Part shown: one piece after another, positions 43,546 to 51,240 of the stretch
Position numbering within the stretch: the stretch's first letter is position 1
Layout: every line of letters begins with the position of its first letter
Source of the DNA: Thiohalorhabdus denitrificans
Lineage (GTDB): Bacteria; Pseudomonadota; Gammaproteobacteria; Thiohalorhabdales; Thiohalorhabdaceae
Direction of reading: 5' to 3'
Assembly: GCF_001399755.1 (NCBI RefSeq)
Contig: NZ_LJCP01000010.1
Location: 186,001 to 250,000, forward strand
DNA: 64,000 nt
The notes under the pieces: generated by a model
What the model saw: only the letters and a program-made list of their open reading frames with translations
Told to the model about the DNA's origin: nothing
Databases searched by the model: none
Made by a program: the position numbers and the translations under genes

Positions 43546-43623
43546 CCGGCGCCCCTCGAAAGGGGGAGGGGACTCTTCGGGGTTCCCGGCGGGGCCTTGG
43601 CGCGGATCAGGATGGAAGGGTGT

Positions 43624-45888
43624 ATGGAGACGGGCAAAAAAGGGAAGAAACCGGACCTCGGCGCAAAGCTGGTCGAGAAGGGCCTGCTGAAGGAGCAGAC
43701 CCTTGCCAGTGCGCGGTCGCAGGCGCAGGAAATAAAGGAGCCCTTCGAAGAATTCCTGATGAAGCAGGGCTATGTTCGGGAGGAGGATCTCCTTCCGATC
43801 CTGTCCGAGCTGTACCGGATTCCCCTCGTGAACCTGAACGATCTCACCATTCGTTCGGACGCCGCCAGCCTCCTACCCTACGAGATCGCCAGCAAGTACC
43901 AGGTTCTTCCCCTCGGCCAGCGGCGTGGGTCCGTGGTGCTCGCCATGCGCGAGGCCCACAACATCCGTCTGGTGGACGAGCTGCGCTTCCATGTGGGCCG
44001 GCCGGTGCAGACGGTGTATGCCCCCCAGAAGGCCATCGAAGACCGCCTTGGCGACGTCTATGGAGCCGGGGGAGCCGGCCTCATAGGGGGCGGTGACGAT
44101 GGCGCTATTGATGAAGCCATCAGCGAAATGGAGGTGGAAGGGGGGGGCGGCGACGAGGAGGAACAGAGCCAGACTGCCGTGGAGGAGGAGGGCAATTCCT
44201 CGCCCATGGTCAAGCTGGTCAACGAGATCCTCTTCCGCGCGGTGCAGAAGGGCGCCTCCGACATCCATCTGGAGTCGGCGGAGAACTCCCTGGTTATCCG
44301 TTTCCGGGTTGACGGCGCCCTGCGGGTGATCCGTCGGCTCCCCAAGAAGGTCCAGAACGCCGTCATCTCCCGAATCAAAGTGCTGGGCGGCATGGACATC
44401 TCCGATGCCCGCCGGCCGCAGGACGGGCGCCTGAAGATGCGCATGGGAGAGAAGACCCTGGACCTCCGCGTCTCCACGCTGCCCACCTTCTGGGGGGAGA
44501 AGGTGGTGATGCGTATCCTGGACCAGGGGGGGGTCGGCCTGGACCTGGACGTGCTAGGATTTCTGCGCGCGGAGCGGGAACAGATCGAGGACATCATGCG
44601 CCAGCCCCAGGGCATGATGCTGGTCACCGGCCCCACCGGCTCCGGCAAGACCACCACCCTGTACTCCGTCCTCTCCACGATCAATACCGAGGACATCAAC
44701 ATCATCACGGTGGAGGACCCGGTCGAATTCCAGCTGCCCGGGATCAACCAGGTCCCCGTGAACCCCAAGGCGGGCATGACCTTCGCCGCGGGGCTCCGAT
44801 CGATCCTGCGCCAGGACCCCAACGTCATCATGGTGGGTGAGATCCGCGACCAGGAGACCGCCGAGATCGCGCTGGAGGCCGCCGAAACCGGCCACATGGT
44901 GTTCTCCACACTGCACACCACCTCTGCGGCCGGGGCGGTTACCCGTTTGCTCGAGATGGAAGTACCCGGATACCTGATCTCCTCCAGCCTTTCCGGGGTG
45001 ATCGCTCAGCGGCTTCTGCGGCGCAACTGTCCCGACTGCAGCGAGCCGGTGGATGTCGGCGATGCCATGCGCAAGAAGTACAACATCCCCGACCACATCA
45101 CCTTCTACGAGGGCCAGGGCTGCTCCACCTGCGACGGCCAGGGCAAGAAGGGCCGGATGGGCGTCTATGAGATGCTCATCCCCGACCGGGAGGTGATCGA
45201 GGGCCTCAACCGGGGGGCCAGCGAGGCGGACCTGGTGGAGCTGGCCCGGCGCTCGGGCATGAACCTCATGTTCGAGGACGGGCTGGTCAAGGCCATGCGC
45301 GGGGCGGTGGCCTTCAGCGACGTGCTCAACACGGTGGGCTCGCCCACGGGGGTGAACGTTGACGCCGAGCGGCTCCTGGAGCAGGCTGATTTGCCCTGGT
45401 CGGAGCGGGGTCTTACCGCCACCCGCAAGAAGGAACGGGGAGCGGACGAGCCCGAGACCATCCTGGTGGTGGACGATTCTCGAACCATCCGGGACATGAG
45501 CCGCTTCGTGCTGGAAAGCGAAGGGTTCCGGGTCATCCAGGCGGAGGACGGCCGGGAGGGGTTCGAAGTGCTCTGCAAGGAGATGCCGGATCTGGTGCTC
45601 ACCGATATGCAGATGCCCAACATGGATGGCGACGAGCTGACCCAGAAGATCAAAGGGGACCCCAGCCTCGCCCGGATCCCGGTGGTGGTGCTCACCTCCC
45701 AGGAGGGGGAGGAGACGGAAGCGGGGGTGCTCGGCCACGGCGCCGACGATTTCATCAACAAACCCATCGAGCCCATGACCCTCACCGCACGAGTCAAGAA
45801 GATCCTGGCCACCTATCGGCAGTTCTACGGGGAGGAGGGGAAAGCCCCCGGCCAGGATGACGATCTGCCCCAACAGGTGGTTTCCTAG
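43624..45888 (+). CDS. PilB/GspE-type pilus extension ATPase fused to a response-regulator receiver domain
   Basis: A 754-residue protein with three parts. The N-terminal MshEN/T2SSE_N-like region (about 10-150, LGAKLVEKGLLKEQTL and FLMKQGYVREEDLL) contains two copies of a motif that in MshE binds cyclic di-GMP, here partly degenerate. The ATPase (about 205-560) has Walker A GPTGSGKTT (K342), EDPVEFQL, the Asp box GEIRDQETAEIALE, the His box TLHTTSAAGAVTRLLEM and a tetracysteine zinc site (CPDC...CSTC) as in PilB. After a linker, residues about 612-735 form a complete CheY-like receiver: VVDDSRTIRD, phospho-acceptor D661 in LTDMQMPN, and the Lys in FINKPIEPM. PilA, PilC and PilM-Q genes are not nearby. 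ATG 43624 has GGAAGGG upstream; 43612 is an alternative. The stop shares one base with cheW. Confidence 0.88.
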   Translation: METGKKGKKPDLGAKLVEKGLLKEQTLASARSQAQEIKEPFEEFLMKQGYVREEDLLPILSELYRIPLVNLNDLTIRSDAASLLPYEIASKYQVLPLGQRRGSVVLAMREAHNIRLVDELRFHVGRPVQTVYAPQKAIEDRLGDVYGAGGAGLIGGGDDGAIDEAISEMEVEGGGGDEEEQSQTAVEEEGNSSPMVKLVNEILFRAVQKGASDIHLESAENSLVIRFRVDGALRVIRRLPKKVQNAVISRIKVLGGMDISDARRPQDGRLKMRMGEKTLDLRVSTLPTFWGEKVVMRILDQGGVGLDLDVLGFLRAEREQIEDIMRQPQGMMLVTGPTGSGKTTTLYSVLSTINTEDINIITVEDPVEFQLPGINQVPVNPKAGMTFAAGLRSILRQDPNVIMVGEIRDQETAEIALEAAETGHMVFSTLHTTSAAGAVTRLLEMEVPGYLISSSLSGVIAQRLLRRNCPDCSEPVDVGDAMRKKYNIPDHITFYEGQGCSTCDGQGKKGRMGVYEMLIPDREVIEGLNRGASEADLVELARRSGMNLMFEDGLVKAMRGAVAFSDVLNTVGSPTGVNVDAERLLEQADLPWSERGLTATRKKERGADEPETILVVDDSRTIRDMSRFVLESEGFRVIQAEDGREGFEVLCKEMPDLVLTDMQMPNMDGDELTQKIKGDPSLARIPVVVLTSQEGEETEAGVLGHGADDFINKPIEPMTLTARVKKILATYRQFYGEEGKAPGQDDDLPQQVVS

Positions 45889-46340
45889 TGGCCGCCGTCC
45901 AAGAAGGCTATGGGAGCGGGGCGGCACAAGCGGAGGGCCGCTTCACCATCGTCGGCCTCGGGGGGTGGTATTTCGCCGTCCCGCTGGAGCGCTCCGCGGG
46001 GTCCATGGAGGCCGTGTCCCTGACCCGCGTCCCCATGGCTCCGGAGGCGGTGATGGGCCTGACCCACATTCAAGGGCGGATCCTTACCGTCCTGGATCTT
46101 CGCCATCTGCTCGGCCTGGAGATCGAAGCTTCCCCGCGGCGGTTTCTTCTGGTGGATGACGAGGAGGAGCAGGTAGGGCTTGTGGTCGATACGGTGGAGG
46201 ACATTGTCCTGGTTGCGCCGCTGGATCTGGACTCCATCGAGGTGGAGCTGCCCCCCGGGGTGCGGGCGAATGCCTCGGGTTTCTTCCGGTGGCGGGGGAA
46301 CCCCGTGGTGAACCTCTCCGTCGAGCGGCTCTTGAAATGA
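45888..46340 (+). CDS. CheW-like coupling protein
   Basis: A 150-residue single CheW domain: FTIVGLGGWYFAVPLERSAG, VMGLTHIQGRILTVLDLR and LLVDDEEEQVGLVVDTVEDI. Such proteins bridge a chemoreceptor and a CheA kinase. In a Chp-type system it would play the part of PilI. The GTG start shares its G with the stop codon of the upstream ATPase-receiver gene, so expression of the two is tightly linked. Confidence 0.88.
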   Translation: MAAVQEGYGSGAAQAEGRFTIVGLGGWYFAVPLERSAGSMEAVSLTRVPMAPEAVMGLTHIQGRILTVLDLRHLLGLEIEASPRRFLLVDDEEEQVGLVVDTVEDIVLVAPLDLDSIEVELPPGVRANASGFFRWRGNPVVNLSVERLLK

Positions 46341-46407
46341 ACGGCAAATGGGCGGGGCCCGTAGCGGGCCAAAAGCCCGGCAGGGGCAATCAATAAAGGG
46401 ATGATGC

Positions 46408-47847
46408 ATGTCCACGCTTAACATCAGGCAACGGATCCTGCTGGGGATCAGTGCCGTCCTCGTGCTCTGGGTGCTGATCGTAGCCGTAACCTACCTGGTT
46501 CAAGACAAGCAGGCCCGGCTCCTGGAGGATTACTCCCAGGCGAACCACCAGGCCGAGACGGTGACGCGGATGCAGCTCGCCCTGGTGGGGCTCCTGCCGC
46601 CCATGAATGGCTATCTGCAGTCTCTCGATCCGGAGCACCGAGAAGCCTTCGAGGGGGAGCTCCAGAACTACCGGCAGGCCATGCAGAAAGTGGAGCAGAT
46701 CCCGGATCTCCCGGAGAAAGCCCAGAACAACATCAAAGAGGTCAAGGACCTAGTGGAGAACATCGAATCCACGGGGTCCCAGATCTTGGAGGTGGACGAG
46801 GTCACCTCCACCGAGGAATCCATGGCCACCATCGCGGAGTCCCTGGTCTACCTCGCCAAGGACAAGTCCGACGACTTGCGTGGCACCCTGACCCGAAGGG
46901 CCGAGGGACTGCAGGAGGATGTGCAGGAACAGTCCCAGTTCGCCATCCTTGTCAGCCTCGGGGTTACCGGGGCGGCCATCCTGATTGCGCTGCCCCTGAC
47001 CATCTTCATGGTGGGCTGGATCCGGCGCACCGTGGATGGCCTTCGGGCCCGCGTGCAGGAGGAATCCTCCGCCATTCTGGGATCCATGGAGGCCCAGATC
47101 CGGTTCACCTCCGAACTGGAACAGTCCATGGGCACCATGACCCAGTCCATGGAGCAGATGAGCGGCGTGTCCCGGGATATCGCCCAGTCGGCCTCCTCGG
47201 TGGACGAGGTGGCGCGGGAGACCCGAGAGACCGCCCGCAATGGCGCGAAGGACGTGGAGCGGGTGGTGCGCTCCATGGACGAGATCCGTAACGGCGTGCG
47301 CGACATCAACAACAAGATTACCCATACGGGTACCAAGGCCCAGCAGATCGCCGACGCGGTGGCCTCCATCGACGAGATCGCCGACGAGACCCACATGCTC
47401 GCCCTGAACGCCGCTATCGAGTCGGCGGCCGCCGGGGAGTACGGCCAGCGCTTCGGCGTGGTGGCTGCGGAGGTTCGTCGCCTCGCCGAGCGCACCCGGG
47501 AATTTACCGACGAAGCCAACCGGCTCATGCAGGAGGTGCGGTCCTCCACCGAATCCTCCATCGAGGCCACGGAGACGGGCGTGCAATCCGTGGAACAGGG
47601 AGTGGAGATGACCAAGCAGGCCGGCCAGGCCCTGTCCGGAATTCTGGAAATGACGGACCGTACCGCCCAGGCCACCCAGCAGATCGCCACCTCCACCGAG
47701 GAGCAAGACGCCTCCACTGCCGAAGTCCGGCAACAGCTCGAGGACATCTCCGCCAAGCTTCAGGAGACCACCAAGGGCCTCAAGCAGTCCGAGGAGATCG
47801 CGTACCGCATGAGCGAGGTCTCGGACCGCATGAACCGGGAGCTTTAA
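46408..47847 (+). CDS. Methyl-accepting chemoreceptor, PilJ-like position
   Basis: A 479-residue receptor. TM1 lies at about 10-31 and TM2 at about 178-204, with a helical periplasmic domain of about 145 residues between them (many QA/E-rich helices, no PAS or Cache motif seen). After TM2 no clear HAMP domain appears; helices run directly into the signalling coiled coil. The hairpin tip, residues about 322-365 (IDEIADETHMLALNAAIESA, then FGVVAAEVRRLAERT), is the classic MCP signature. Glutamate/glutamine pairs could be adaptation sites, but no CheR or CheB is encoded nearby. The spacing to cheA is nine bases. Confidence 0.87.
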   Translation: MSTLNIRQRILLGISAVLVLWVLIVAVTYLVQDKQARLLEDYSQANHQAETVTRMQLALVGLLPPMNGYLQSLDPEHREAFEGELQNYRQAMQKVEQIPDLPEKAQNNIKEVKDLVENIESTGSQILEVDEVTSTEESMATIAESLVYLAKDKSDDLRGTLTRRAEGLQEDVQEQSQFAILVSLGVTGAAILIALPLTIFMVGWIRRTVDGLRARVQEESSAILGSMEAQIRFTSELEQSMGTMTQSMEQMSGVSRDIAQSASSVDEVARETRETARNGAKDVERVVRSMDEIRNGVRDINNKITHTGTKAQQIADAVASIDEIADETHMLALNAAIESAAAGEYGQRFGVVAAEVRRLAERTREFTDEANRLMQEVRSSTESSIEATETGVQSVEQGVEMTKQAGQALSGILEMTDRTAQATQQIATSTEEQDASTAEVRQQLEDISAKLQETTKGLKQSEEIAYRMSEVSDRMNREL

Positions 47848-47856
47848 GGGCACCCG

Positions 47857-50800
47857 ATGGCCTCCGGATTCGACTTCTCCGCATTCATCGCCGGCTTCCA
47901 GGAGGAGGCCGAAGAGCGCCTCCACGCCATCGAGTCCACCCTCGTCGAGCTGGAGAAGGGCGGGGTGGACGCCGACCAGATGGAGCGTCTGCGCCGGGAT
48001 GCCCACTCGGTGAAGGGCTCCGCCAACATGCTCCAGCTACGGGACATCGGCGAGTCCGCCCATGTCCTGGAGGACGCCTTCGCCTACCTGCGGGATGGGA
48101 CCGCCGCGCCCCATCGGGACTATACGGATTTCATGTTCCAGGTGGTGGATGCCCTCCGCTCCCGGATCGGGGAAGCCGACGCCCCGGACTCCCAACCGCT
48201 GGATGCCGACGGACTGCGGGAGCAGCTGGAGGGCCTGGGGGCCCAAGAGGATGAGCCGGCCGAGGAACCGCCGCCGCAGGAGCCTGCGGCGGCCGCGGAA
48301 CCCGCTTTCCCCCAGGAGGAGGCGGAACCCGGACCGGCGTCGTCCACCCCGCTCTCCGCGCCCGATCCGGATCCCGAGCCCGACCCCGACCCCGCACCCG
48401 CGGAGCCTCCCAATGATCCCGGGGGAAGCTCTCCCGTGGAGCCTGCAGCGTCCGCGGCATCCGATCCCCTTGCGGATGTGCGCGGCGAGGCGTCCGCCAT
48501 ACTGGACGGCATCCAGGAAGTCCTCGGTTCCAACGACCCCATGGCCGCCGCCTCGGACTCCTTCCTCGACCGCACCGACAACCTGGCTGTCTCCCTGCGT
48601 CAGGCCGGACTGGAGGACGCGGCGGAGGGGCTCGACCTGATCGCCGGGGTTCTGGAAACCCCGGCGGTGGGGGGGCTGCCGGCCTCCCTCGGGGAATTGC
48701 TGCAGAACCTGGCCCATCGGGTCCGCCTCCGGCTCGACCACGCCGGGGGGCCCGACGCCCGCCCCTTGGACCAGCAAAAGATCCGGCAGGCCCGGGAGCT
48801 CCTGGAGCAATGGGGGCTCATTCAGGCCGGGGAGGGGCCGGCGGACCCTGGGCAGGCCCCTTCTCCGGAGCCGGAGCATCCCCCAGTGGCCCCTACGGGC
48901 GGGGAGGGTGCGTCCGCTGAGGAAGGGGACGAGGTCCCTGCCATCGCCCAGTCCGGGAGCGCCGCGGGACGTACTGCCTCGCGCAAAGGCGCGGGCATGG
49001 ATGTCTCCGCCTTCCTGGAAGGATTCCAGGGTGAGGCCCTGGAAGAGCTGGCCTTGATCCAGGACGGGCTGCTGAAAGCGGAGCAGGGGGAGCTGGACGA
49101 GGAGCCCCTCGATACCATGCGGCAGAAGGCCCACAGCCTGAAGGGGTCGGCCAACATGCTGGGGGTGGAGGACATCGGCGGCGGCGCCGAGCTTCTCGAA
49201 GAGGGCCTGGTAACCCTGGCCTCGGGGGAGAAGGGCGATGTCGGGGCCCTCCTGGGGCTCCATGACGCCCTGCGCGAGGCCACCGACCAGGTACTCGCCG
49301 AGGATCGGCCCCGGGTGGACGTGGCAGGATGGCGGAAGCGCCTGGAGGAGGGGCCGCCCGAAACGGTCCGCGAGCCCGATCCCGCGCCCGCCGCCGCTCC
49401 GGAAGCGCCCAAGCCTCCCCCGGAGGCACCAACCTCGGAGGAGCCGGCGCCCCCTACCGAACCCCCGCAGGCCGAGCCCGGGAAGGCCCGATCCGCCAGC
49501 ACGGGTCGCGGGACGATGCGGGTTAGCGCCCAGCGCCTCGAGCGCCTGAGCGAGGGGGTGATCGGTCTGGCCATGGACCGGGCCACCCAGGAGGACCGCC
49601 GGGCCGAGATGGACCAGATCATCTCCGACTTCCGCGCCCTGCGTAGCCAGTGGGAGCTGCTGGAGGGAGAGCTGCCCGAGTCGGGGCCCCTAGTGCAGCA
49701 GCAGAAGAGCCTCGCCAACCAGCTGGAGAACCTTTCCCAGGCCCTGAACCGTTTCCGCCAGGAAACCGAGCTGGACATCGCCGCCCGGCACGGCCTGTAC
49801 GACGAGATCCACCAACGGGTCATGGCCCTCATGGTCTCCCCCCTGGGAACCATCTTCTCCGTGCTGCCCCGATCGGCCCGGGACCTGGCCCAGCGGTTCC
49901 AGAAGCGGGTGGAGCTCTCCATCGAGGGCAGCGAGATTGAGCTGGAGCGGAAGAACGTCGACGCGCTCCTCGAGCCCCTTGTCCACTTGGTGACCAACGC
50001 CATATCCCACGGTATCGAGGATCCCGCCGAGCGCGAGGCGACCGGCAAGAATCCGGTGGGGCATATCCTGGTCCGCGCGGAGCACGTGGGCGGCGAGGTG
50101 GCCATCTCCGTATCCGACGACGGTCGCGGTATCGATTACGAGAAGGTTCGCGAGACGGCGATCCGCACTGGCGTGACCACGGCCGCGGAAGCCGAGAGCA
50201 TGCTTCCCTACGACCTGCTGCAAATGCTTTTCCGCCCCGGTTTCTCCACCAAGGAGGAGGTCAGCCAGATCTCCGGCCGGGGAATCGGCATGAACGCCGT
50301 CCGTGACGCCGTCCAGCGTATGACCGGCTCCATCCAGGTGGACTCGGAGGTGGGGAAGGGCACCACCTTCACGCTCAACATACCCGTCTCCACCGCCGTG
50401 CAGCGGGTGCTGAAATTCCGAGTCGGGAACGAAGTCTACGGCGTGCTCGCCAACCAGGTGGAGCGGATCCTCGGGCTCAACGAGGTGGTGCTCACCGAAT
50501 CCCGGGGCCAGCGGCATTTCCAGTACCATGGCAACCAGGTTCCGGCCACTTGGCTTAGCGAGCTGTTCGCCACCACCAGCGACGAGATCCAGGAGACGCG
50601 AAACCTGCGGCTGGTGGTGGTGCGCCACCTGGAGGGCTACATCGGGCTGGTGGTGGACGATGTCATCGAGGAGACCCAGGCGGTGGTCAAGGATGTCACA
50701 GGCTACCTCCGCCGCCACTCCGTCCAGGGCCTGATCGGCACCACCATCTCCGGCGCCGGCGAGGTGCAGCTGCTTCTGGAGCCCACGGGCATCAAGGAGA

Positions 50801-51240
50801 TGGAACGTACCGCGCCGCTGTCGCTGCAGTCGGGCGAGCGGCTGCCCGAGGATCCCCTGCGAGGACTGCGGGTGCTGCTGGTGGAGGACTCGCCGCTCGC
50901 CCGGCAAATGGAACGGGCGGTTCTGGAGAACGCGGGGATGGAGGTCGACACGGCCGTGGATGGCCTGGACGCCCTCGATCGCATGGAGGTGAAATTCCCC
51001 GACATCGTCATCTCCGACGTGGAGATGCCCCGCATGGACGGCTACGACCTCCTGCGCAAGCTGCGCGACGACAGCCGCTACCGCGGCCTGCCCGTGTTCA
51101 TGGTCACCTCCCGCGACAGCGAGGAGGACCGGGGGACGGCGCAGCACCTCGGCGCGGACGGCTTCCTCAACAAGATGGATCTGCAGTCCGGGAACTTGAT
51201 CGAAGAGATTCGCAGCCGCCTCGAGCAGCTTTATGTTTGA
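47857..51240 (+). CDS. Hybrid CheA-type histidine kinase with multiple Hpt modules and a receiver
   Basis: An 1127-residue kinase. Two Hpt domains carry phosphorylatable histidines: H50 (RRDAHSVKGSANML) and H426 (RQKAHSLKGSANML). Between them (about 205-320) lies a third helical segment without such a histidine, possibly a degenerate Hpt. Proline/acidic linkers separate the modules. A dimerisation region precedes the ATPase domain: N714 in HLVTNAISHGIE, DDGRGID (D754) and GRGIGMNAV. A CheW domain (about 848-985) follows. The C-terminal receiver (about 1004-1125) has VEDSPLARQ, D1054 in ISDVEMPRMDG and FLNKMD. The layout resembles ChpA/PixL kinases of twitching-motility systems, but is shorter. 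No separate CheY, CheR or CheB is present in the cluster. Confidence 0.88.
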   Translation: MASGFDFSAFIAGFQEEAEERLHAIESTLVELEKGGVDADQMERLRRDAHSVKGSANMLQLRDIGESAHVLEDAFAYLRDGTAAPHRDYTDFMFQVVDALRSRIGEADAPDSQPLDADGLREQLEGLGAQEDEPAEEPPPQEPAAAAEPAFPQEEAEPGPASSTPLSAPDPDPEPDPDPAPAEPPNDPGGSSPVEPAASAASDPLADVRGEASAILDGIQEVLGSNDPMAAASDSFLDRTDNLAVSLRQAGLEDAAEGLDLIAGVLETPAVGGLPASLGELLQNLAHRVRLRLDHAGGPDARPLDQQKIRQARELLEQWGLIQAGEGPADPGQAPSPEPEHPPVAPTGGEGASAEEGDEVPAIAQSGSAAGRTASRKGAGMDVSAFLEGFQGEALEELALIQDGLLKAEQGELDEEPLDTMRQKAHSLKGSANMLGVEDIGGGAELLEEGLVTLASGEKGDVGALLGLHDALREATDQVLAEDRPRVDVAGWRKRLEEGPPETVREPDPAPAAAPEAPKPPPEAPTSEEPAPPTEPPQAEPGKARSASTGRGTMRVSAQRLERLSEGVIGLAMDRATQEDRRAEMDQIISDFRALRSQWELLEGELPESGPLVQQQKSLANQLENLSQALNRFRQETELDIAARHGLYDEIHQRVMALMVSPLGTIFSVLPRSARDLAQRFQKRVELSIEGSEIELERKNVDALLEPLVHLVTNAISHGIEDPAEREATGKNPVGHILVRAEHVGGEVAISVSDDGRGIDYEKVRETAIRTGVTTAAEAESMLPYDLLQMLFRPGFSTKEEVSQISGRGIGMNAVRDAVQRMTGSIQVDSEVGKGTTFTLNIPVSTAVQRVLKFRVGNEVYGVLANQVERILGLNEVVLTESRGQRHFQYHGNQVPATWLSELFATTSDEIQETRNLRLVVVRHLEGYIGLVVDDVIEETQAVVKDVTGYLRRHSVQGLIGTTISGAGEVQLLLEPTGIKEMERTAPLSLQSGERLPEDPLRGLRVLLVEDSPLARQMERAVLENAGMEVDTAVDGLDALDRMEVKFPDIVISDVEMPRMDGYDLLRKLRDDSRYRGLPVFMVTSRDSEEDRGTAQHLGADGFLNKMDLQSGNLIEEIRSRLEQLYV

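Follow-up and report, generated by a model that had tools for sequence, protein, structure and literature searches.

Several of the described systems connect chemosensory or receiver proteins with the motors of type IV pili. The Pil-Chp system of P. aeruginosa (PilJ, PilI, ChpA, PilG, PilH, PilK, and ChpB), which controls PilB, has a core comprised of a chemoreceptor (methyl-accepting chemotaxis protein, MCP), a CheW and a CheA with Hpt and receiver domains; the control of the pilus motors by this kinase is debated, and it has not been rigorously established with which targets PilG and PilH interact directly (PMC10519157). In Synechocystis, the PATAN-CheY regulators PixG, PilG, TaxP2, and PixE bind to PilB1, so that receivers of the CheY type act directly upon the extension motor (PMC10519157, PMC7690835), and in Xanthomonas the receiver of the single-domain protein EmvR binds and inhibits PilB, lowering its Vmax in an Asp-dependent manner (PMC11973254). 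We describe here a locus from Thiohalorhabdus denitrificans, present within a stretch of 64,000 nucleotides (contig NZ_LJCP01000010.1, positions 186,001 to 250,000; referred to as the window), where four open reading frames (ORFs) on the same strand (43624-51240, +) encode a PilB/GspE-type ATPase with a C-terminal receiver (referred to as PilB-REC), a CheW, an MCP, and a CheA. An earlier, sequence-only reading of this locus had stated that the regulators of described Chp/Pil systems act on the motors indirectly, which in view of the above work on EmvR and the PATAN regulators is not generally the case.

The locus resembles the Pil-Chp system in that an MCP, a CheW, and a CheA containing Hpt and receiver domains are found in one operon, and in that a PilB-type ATPase is here proposed as the final target. 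It differs in lacking PilG and PilH, the output receiver being instead fused to the ATPase, whose gene is the first in the operon; the methylation enzymes are unlinked, and no match to the PilJ domain was detected in the receptor at E<=0.001 in a Pfam scan. In contrast to Synechocystis, where separate proteins are joined by the PATAN domain, the receiver and the motor are here covalently fused and no PATAN domain is present, whereas EmvR is an unfused orphan whose presumed input is a two-component histidine kinase rather than CheA. Associations of MshEN with receiver domains have been mentioned in passing (Wang et al. 2016; PMC5013675), and in the open-access literature we found no description of a conserved CheA operon with a receiver-tagged motor as its output. 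We consider it likely that the four genes form a chemosensory system that is complete in itself and has an assembly ATPase of type IV pili as its output, and the PilB-REC operon is rated by us as a new conserved form of chemosensory pilus control.

Conservation of the PilB-REC operon

The four-gene set named by the sequence-only reading (a motor with a receiver, CheW, a chemoreceptor and a hybrid CheA) agrees with the ORFs and with their Pfam domains. PilB-REC showed matches to T2SSE (E=8.5e-135), Response_reg (E=3.5e-28) and also MshEN, the MCP to MCPsignal, and the CheA to two Hpt domains, HATPase_c, CheW, and Response_reg. The reported overlap of the first two genes was also confirmed, as the PilB-REC stop and the GTG start of cheW share one base (TAGTG, 45886-45890), and operon linkage is supported; at the same junction, 4 bases are shared in both sister species. 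The D661 residue noted earlier as intact lies, in the 754-aa numbering, inside a complete receiver pocket with the acidic pair, phospho-acceptor Asp, Thr/Ser, and Lys all present. The T2SSE fold, Walker A and B motifs, His box and tetracysteine zinc site of PilB are likewise found in PilB-REC, and its nearest solved structures are those of PilB from type IVa pili (T4aP).

The fusion and the four-gene order were observed in the genomes of all three sampled species of the window's genus. Outside this genus, no other C-terminal fusion was found among 369 members of the window's class when the two best candidates were scored per genome, nor in 53 class members where up to 19 candidates were scored. 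The view, held at that stage, that the fusion is unique to the genus was overturned by a phylum-wide search, where full-length fusions of 40-48% identity were found in three further families, most of them in f207. In the class to which genome G393 belongs, the fusion is present in 50 of 78 genomes (26 of 39 when only those of good quality are counted) and in 11 of 18 genera. The order PilB-REC, CheW, MCP, CheA was seen in 21 of the 22 loci read from this other lineage, the exception (L280) consisting of PilB-REC and CheW only, while in L288 a frameshift divides the fusion. The recurrence of both fusion and gene order in the genus and in the other lineage excludes chance. The sequence-only reading had been unable to say how widespread the fusion is, and this is now answered in part: it is frequent in one class and limited to one genus among the sampled members of the window's class. 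A scan of the genome contigs with a single PilB-REC protein, for which the peptides used were variable, gave mostly unrelated receiver proteins and no fusion.

In a phylogenetic tree, all fusions formed one clade (27 rows, SH-aLRT 96) apart from canonical PilB; this was a quick tree in which the deep branches are unresolved. The Walker A motif (GPTGSGKTTT), the Walker B glutamate (GEIRD, with one I-to-V change), the His box (STLHT), and the four zinc cysteines are present in 27/27 aligned fusions. The DD/D/T/K pocket of the receiver is invariant in all 25 copies that are linked to chemosensory genes (the window, both genus orthologues and 22/22 from the other lineage). The MCPs of these loci share a plan of two transmembrane (TM) segments with a periplasmic domain of roughly 150 residues.

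A second fusion of the PilB-REC type, 55% identical to that of the window (referred to as fusions B and A, respectively), is found in the window genome (G000; contig C10:309814-312213, or L120:9814-12213) and in one of the two sister species (G002; L127), so that each of these genomes carries two paralogues. No chemosensory genes adjoin fusion B, whose motor residues are intact; in its receiver the acidic pair is lost, the Thr is replaced by Gly/Ala, and in one species the phospho-acceptor is a Glu. As the pocket is degenerate, among the aligned fusions, only in this unlinked paralogue and intact in the linked copies, it is kept beside cheA and lost away from it.

Chemosensory outputs and pilus motors in the window genome

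The window genome is 2.87 Mb in size and 99.9% complete, and the genome-wide counts that follow rest on family searches. It contains exactly two CheW-domain proteins, the CheW and the CheA of the operon, and exactly one chemoreceptor, which is the MCP of the operon. Each of the 25 receiver matches belongs to a protein with further domains (regulators of the NtrC, OmpR, and NarL types, GGDEF proteins, hybrid kinases, CheB, CheA, or one of fusions A and B), and no stand-alone CheY, PilG, or PilH was found either among them or in the operon. Hence, the evident phospho-acceptors of CheA are its own receiver, PilB-REC, and CheB, which is encoded as a pair with CheR unlinked to the operon (C11:164.3-166.2k), and PilB-REC and CheB are the only evident outputs of the sole CheA. 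Among the genus genomes, the sister species G001 has 19 chemoreceptors and keeps the same operon, whereas G000 and G002 have only that of the operon.

The T4aP genes of the window genome include pilMNOPQ (C6:118727-123954), pilC-pilS-pilR-pilD (C6:165-170k) and PilT/PilU-type ATPases. However, a canonical pilB was not detected in this genome, including beside pilC, where its usual place directly upstream is occupied by aroE both in this species and in G001 (L142:12873-15039; L152/L156). The genome also has a separate ATPase in each of its type II secretion (T2SS), Tad, and MSHA-like clusters, and its four GspE/PilB-type ATPases are GspE, the MSHA-like protein and fusions A and B, none of which falls inside the canonical PilB clade. 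Because canonical pilB is absent and the other ATPases are accounted for, elimination leaves fusion A or B as the probable motor of T4aP extension in this genus, and the role is predicted, as probable, for PilB-REC (A). In G001, the only ATPases that are not of the T2SS or MSHA kind are fusion A and a distant GAF-bearing orphan; the latter has a GAF-MshEN-T2SSE organization (L124:6883-9528, on C4), and paralogue B is lacking in this species.

The situation differs in the other lineage, where pilB-pilC-pilS-pilR-pilD with a canonical pilB is found beside the fusion in all five genomes read at the pil cluster (G369, G393, G378, G504, and G595). The fusion is thus an additional motor there, and the idea that it replaces PilB everywhere was rejected. 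In G369, the cheA end of the PilB-REC operon is closely followed by a PilT-like gene (L261:3-854).

Features of the locus and related ATPases

The positions of the genes and domains are given in Table 1. The residue numbering of PilB-REC follows from an ATG start; an alternative TTG start at 43597 would give a protein of 763 aa. The roughly 150-aa periplasmic domain of the window chemoreceptor has no Pfam match. The genes for an alanine dehydrogenase upstream and an FtsK-type translocase downstream flank the four-gene unit and neither belongs to it.

Table 1. Genes and domains of the PilB-REC locus, in window coordinates.
Feature	Position	Strand	Details
PilB-REC, 754 aa	43624..45888	+	N1/MshEN region ~11-150, T2SSE ~191-568, linker ~561-610, receiver 613-725
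Receiver inside PilB-REC	45462..45800	+	D617/D618 acidic pair, D661 phospho-acceptor, T691, K713
CheW, 150 aa	45888..46340	+	Pfam CheW; sole free-standing CheW of the genome
Chemoreceptor (MCP), 479 aa	46408..47847	+	TM 10-28 and 179-197, MCP signalling domain 267-448; sole MCP of the genome
Hybrid CheA, 1127 aa	47857..51240	+	Hpt H50, Hpt H426, HATPase_c 708-844, CheW 851-979, receiver 1006-1107 (D1054); sole CheA of the genome

In an AlphaFold model of PilB-REC (pLDDT 72, based upon a shallow alignment), the receiver is a canonical alpha/beta domain (block pLDDT mostly 94-98) with D661 ending its third strand, while linker residues 561-600 have pLDDT <50 and the ATPase part is modelled poorly. 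The model speaks for a folded receiver that is loosely tethered, the docking of the domains not being reliably readable from it. Control of PilB-REC by c-di-GMP through its MshEN region was considered and judged unlikely, as the binding motif RLGxx..LxxxLxxQ (as defined in PMC7288161) is degraded: in the first repeat, DLGAKLVEKGLLKEQTLASARSQ, a D stands in place of the R and an R in place of one Leu, and the second repeat is degenerate.

Signalling domains are also found on other ATPases of this family. Orphan ATPases with an N-terminal REC-MshEN-T2SSE arrangement are present in three other Gammaproteobacteria (L208:8635-10878, L209:8582-10837, and L210:8207-10486). In contrast to PilB-REC, the receiver is N-terminal in these proteins and the adjoining genes encode ordinary His kinases and no CheA, CheW, or MCP; L204/L208 branches outside the fusion clade. 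Further, STAS-MshEN-T2SSE ATPases (L214:7646-9685 and L215:1440-3488) adjoin genes for a PilC-like protein, a single-domain receiver and a histidine kinase, in what is apparently another signalling-controlled pilus or T2SS cluster. The layout of L212 is similar, without a STAS match.

Proposed mechanism and alternative explanations

In the mechanism that we propose, the two-TM receptor would read a periplasmic or envelope signal and, via CheW, set the activity of CheA, from whose Hpt histidines H50 and H426 phosphate would pass to D661 in the tethered C-terminal receiver of the ATPase. This phosphorylation may change either the ATPase activity or the docking of the protein, whether to PilC/PilM of the pilus platform or to the receptor array, and pilus extension would thereby be set without a diffusible CheY or PilG. 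The receiver of CheA is probably a phosphate sink that resets the signal, a role that fits because single CheAs bearing a receiver are mostly without phosphatases (PMC10542144). In the other lineage, PilB-REC would serve as a second, signal-controlled motor beside PilB. Of these steps, we infer the phosphotransfer from CheA to PilB-REC, its sign, and the pilus as its target. For the wider proposal, that this pathway has no diffusible output regulator and the sole CheA of the cell signals by phosphorylation of the motor, that the CheA-motor pair is ancient and spans two bacterial classes, and that the motor has replaced canonical PilB in one genus, we consider the chances to be even.

A number of observations weigh against the proposal that the output of this system is a pilus motor. 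No pilC, pilin, or secretin gene adjoins PilB-REC in any locus read, and the protein lies outside the canonical PilB clade. Its score with the NCBIfam PilB equivalog TIGR02538 (581.6 bits, for a full-length match over 2-560/564) is under the cut-off of 675.65, and it is likewise under that of the GspE model TIGR02533. In the window genome, an MSHA-like ATPase is also present, the unlinked CheB is another target of CheA, and fusion B, with its dead receiver, could be the alternative main T4aP motor. The loss of the pocket in B, taken as evidence for coupling to cheA, is suggestive, as it represents one evolutionary event and is no statistical proof. The earlier description of PilB-REC as the pilus extension motor itself was therefore too strong for a protein that scores under the PilB cut-off, forms its own clade beside canonical PilB and elsewhere coexists with it; PilB-REC is a candidate main T4aP motor, by elimination, in the window's genus alone.

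The possibility that PilB-REC is no longer a pilus motor, and that it is instead a signalling or secretion ATPase which uses the PilB fold as an output, e.g., in exopolysaccharide control, draws upon its position outside the PilB clade, the absence of pilus genes from the operon and a report of M. xanthus PilB as an exopolysaccharide regulator (PMC5544727). We regard it as unlikely, since the catalytic and zinc residues are invariant in all aligned fusions, each genome that was examined closely has T4aP genes, and among solved structures the closest are those of T4aP PilB proteins. It is more readily conceivable, as a tentative alternative, that PilB-REC is an accessory ATPase, either a competitor of the ordinary motor (canonical PilB, or B in the genus) or a subunit of its hexamers, with phosphorylation tuning the mixed motor. 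The canonical pilB genes retained in the five genomes of the other lineage and the paired paralogues of G000 and G002 favor such a role, but in G001, with only fusion A and the distant GAF orphan, A can hardly be purely accessory.

Another possibility is that the receiver mainly positions the motor, its phosphorylation recruiting or releasing PilB-REC at the array or pole while the ATPase activity is unchanged. PilG of P. aeruginosa recruits PilB to the pole (PMC10519157, PMC12632253), and the linker of ~40 residues, which is predicted to be disordered and is of similar length in all fusions, would suit tethering more than rigid allostery. However, localisation is not readable from sequence, and the effect of EmvR on the Vmax of PilB in vitro (PMC11973254) indicates that direct allostery is possible; we hold positioning to be a serious contender that falls somewhat short of an even chance. 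Lastly, an artefact of assembly or annotation, or a chance position beside a chemotaxis operon, has nothing that counts for it and a negligible probability; it is refuted by dozens of independent assemblies in which the fusion, at 40-85% identity, and the order of the genes are conserved.

The receiver and the motor are one protein chain, encoded in a genome that has no other CheY, and in the reading that we favor, a CheA-controlled pilus motor, the sensor may drive the motor without a go-between protein. Whether CheA passes phosphate to the motor, and how this affects ATP hydrolysis, are questions addressable with two purified proteins, and paralogue B, with its dead receiver, provides a natural control for PilB-REC. 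If this reading is true, the route from receptor to pilus would be shorter than any that is known to us.

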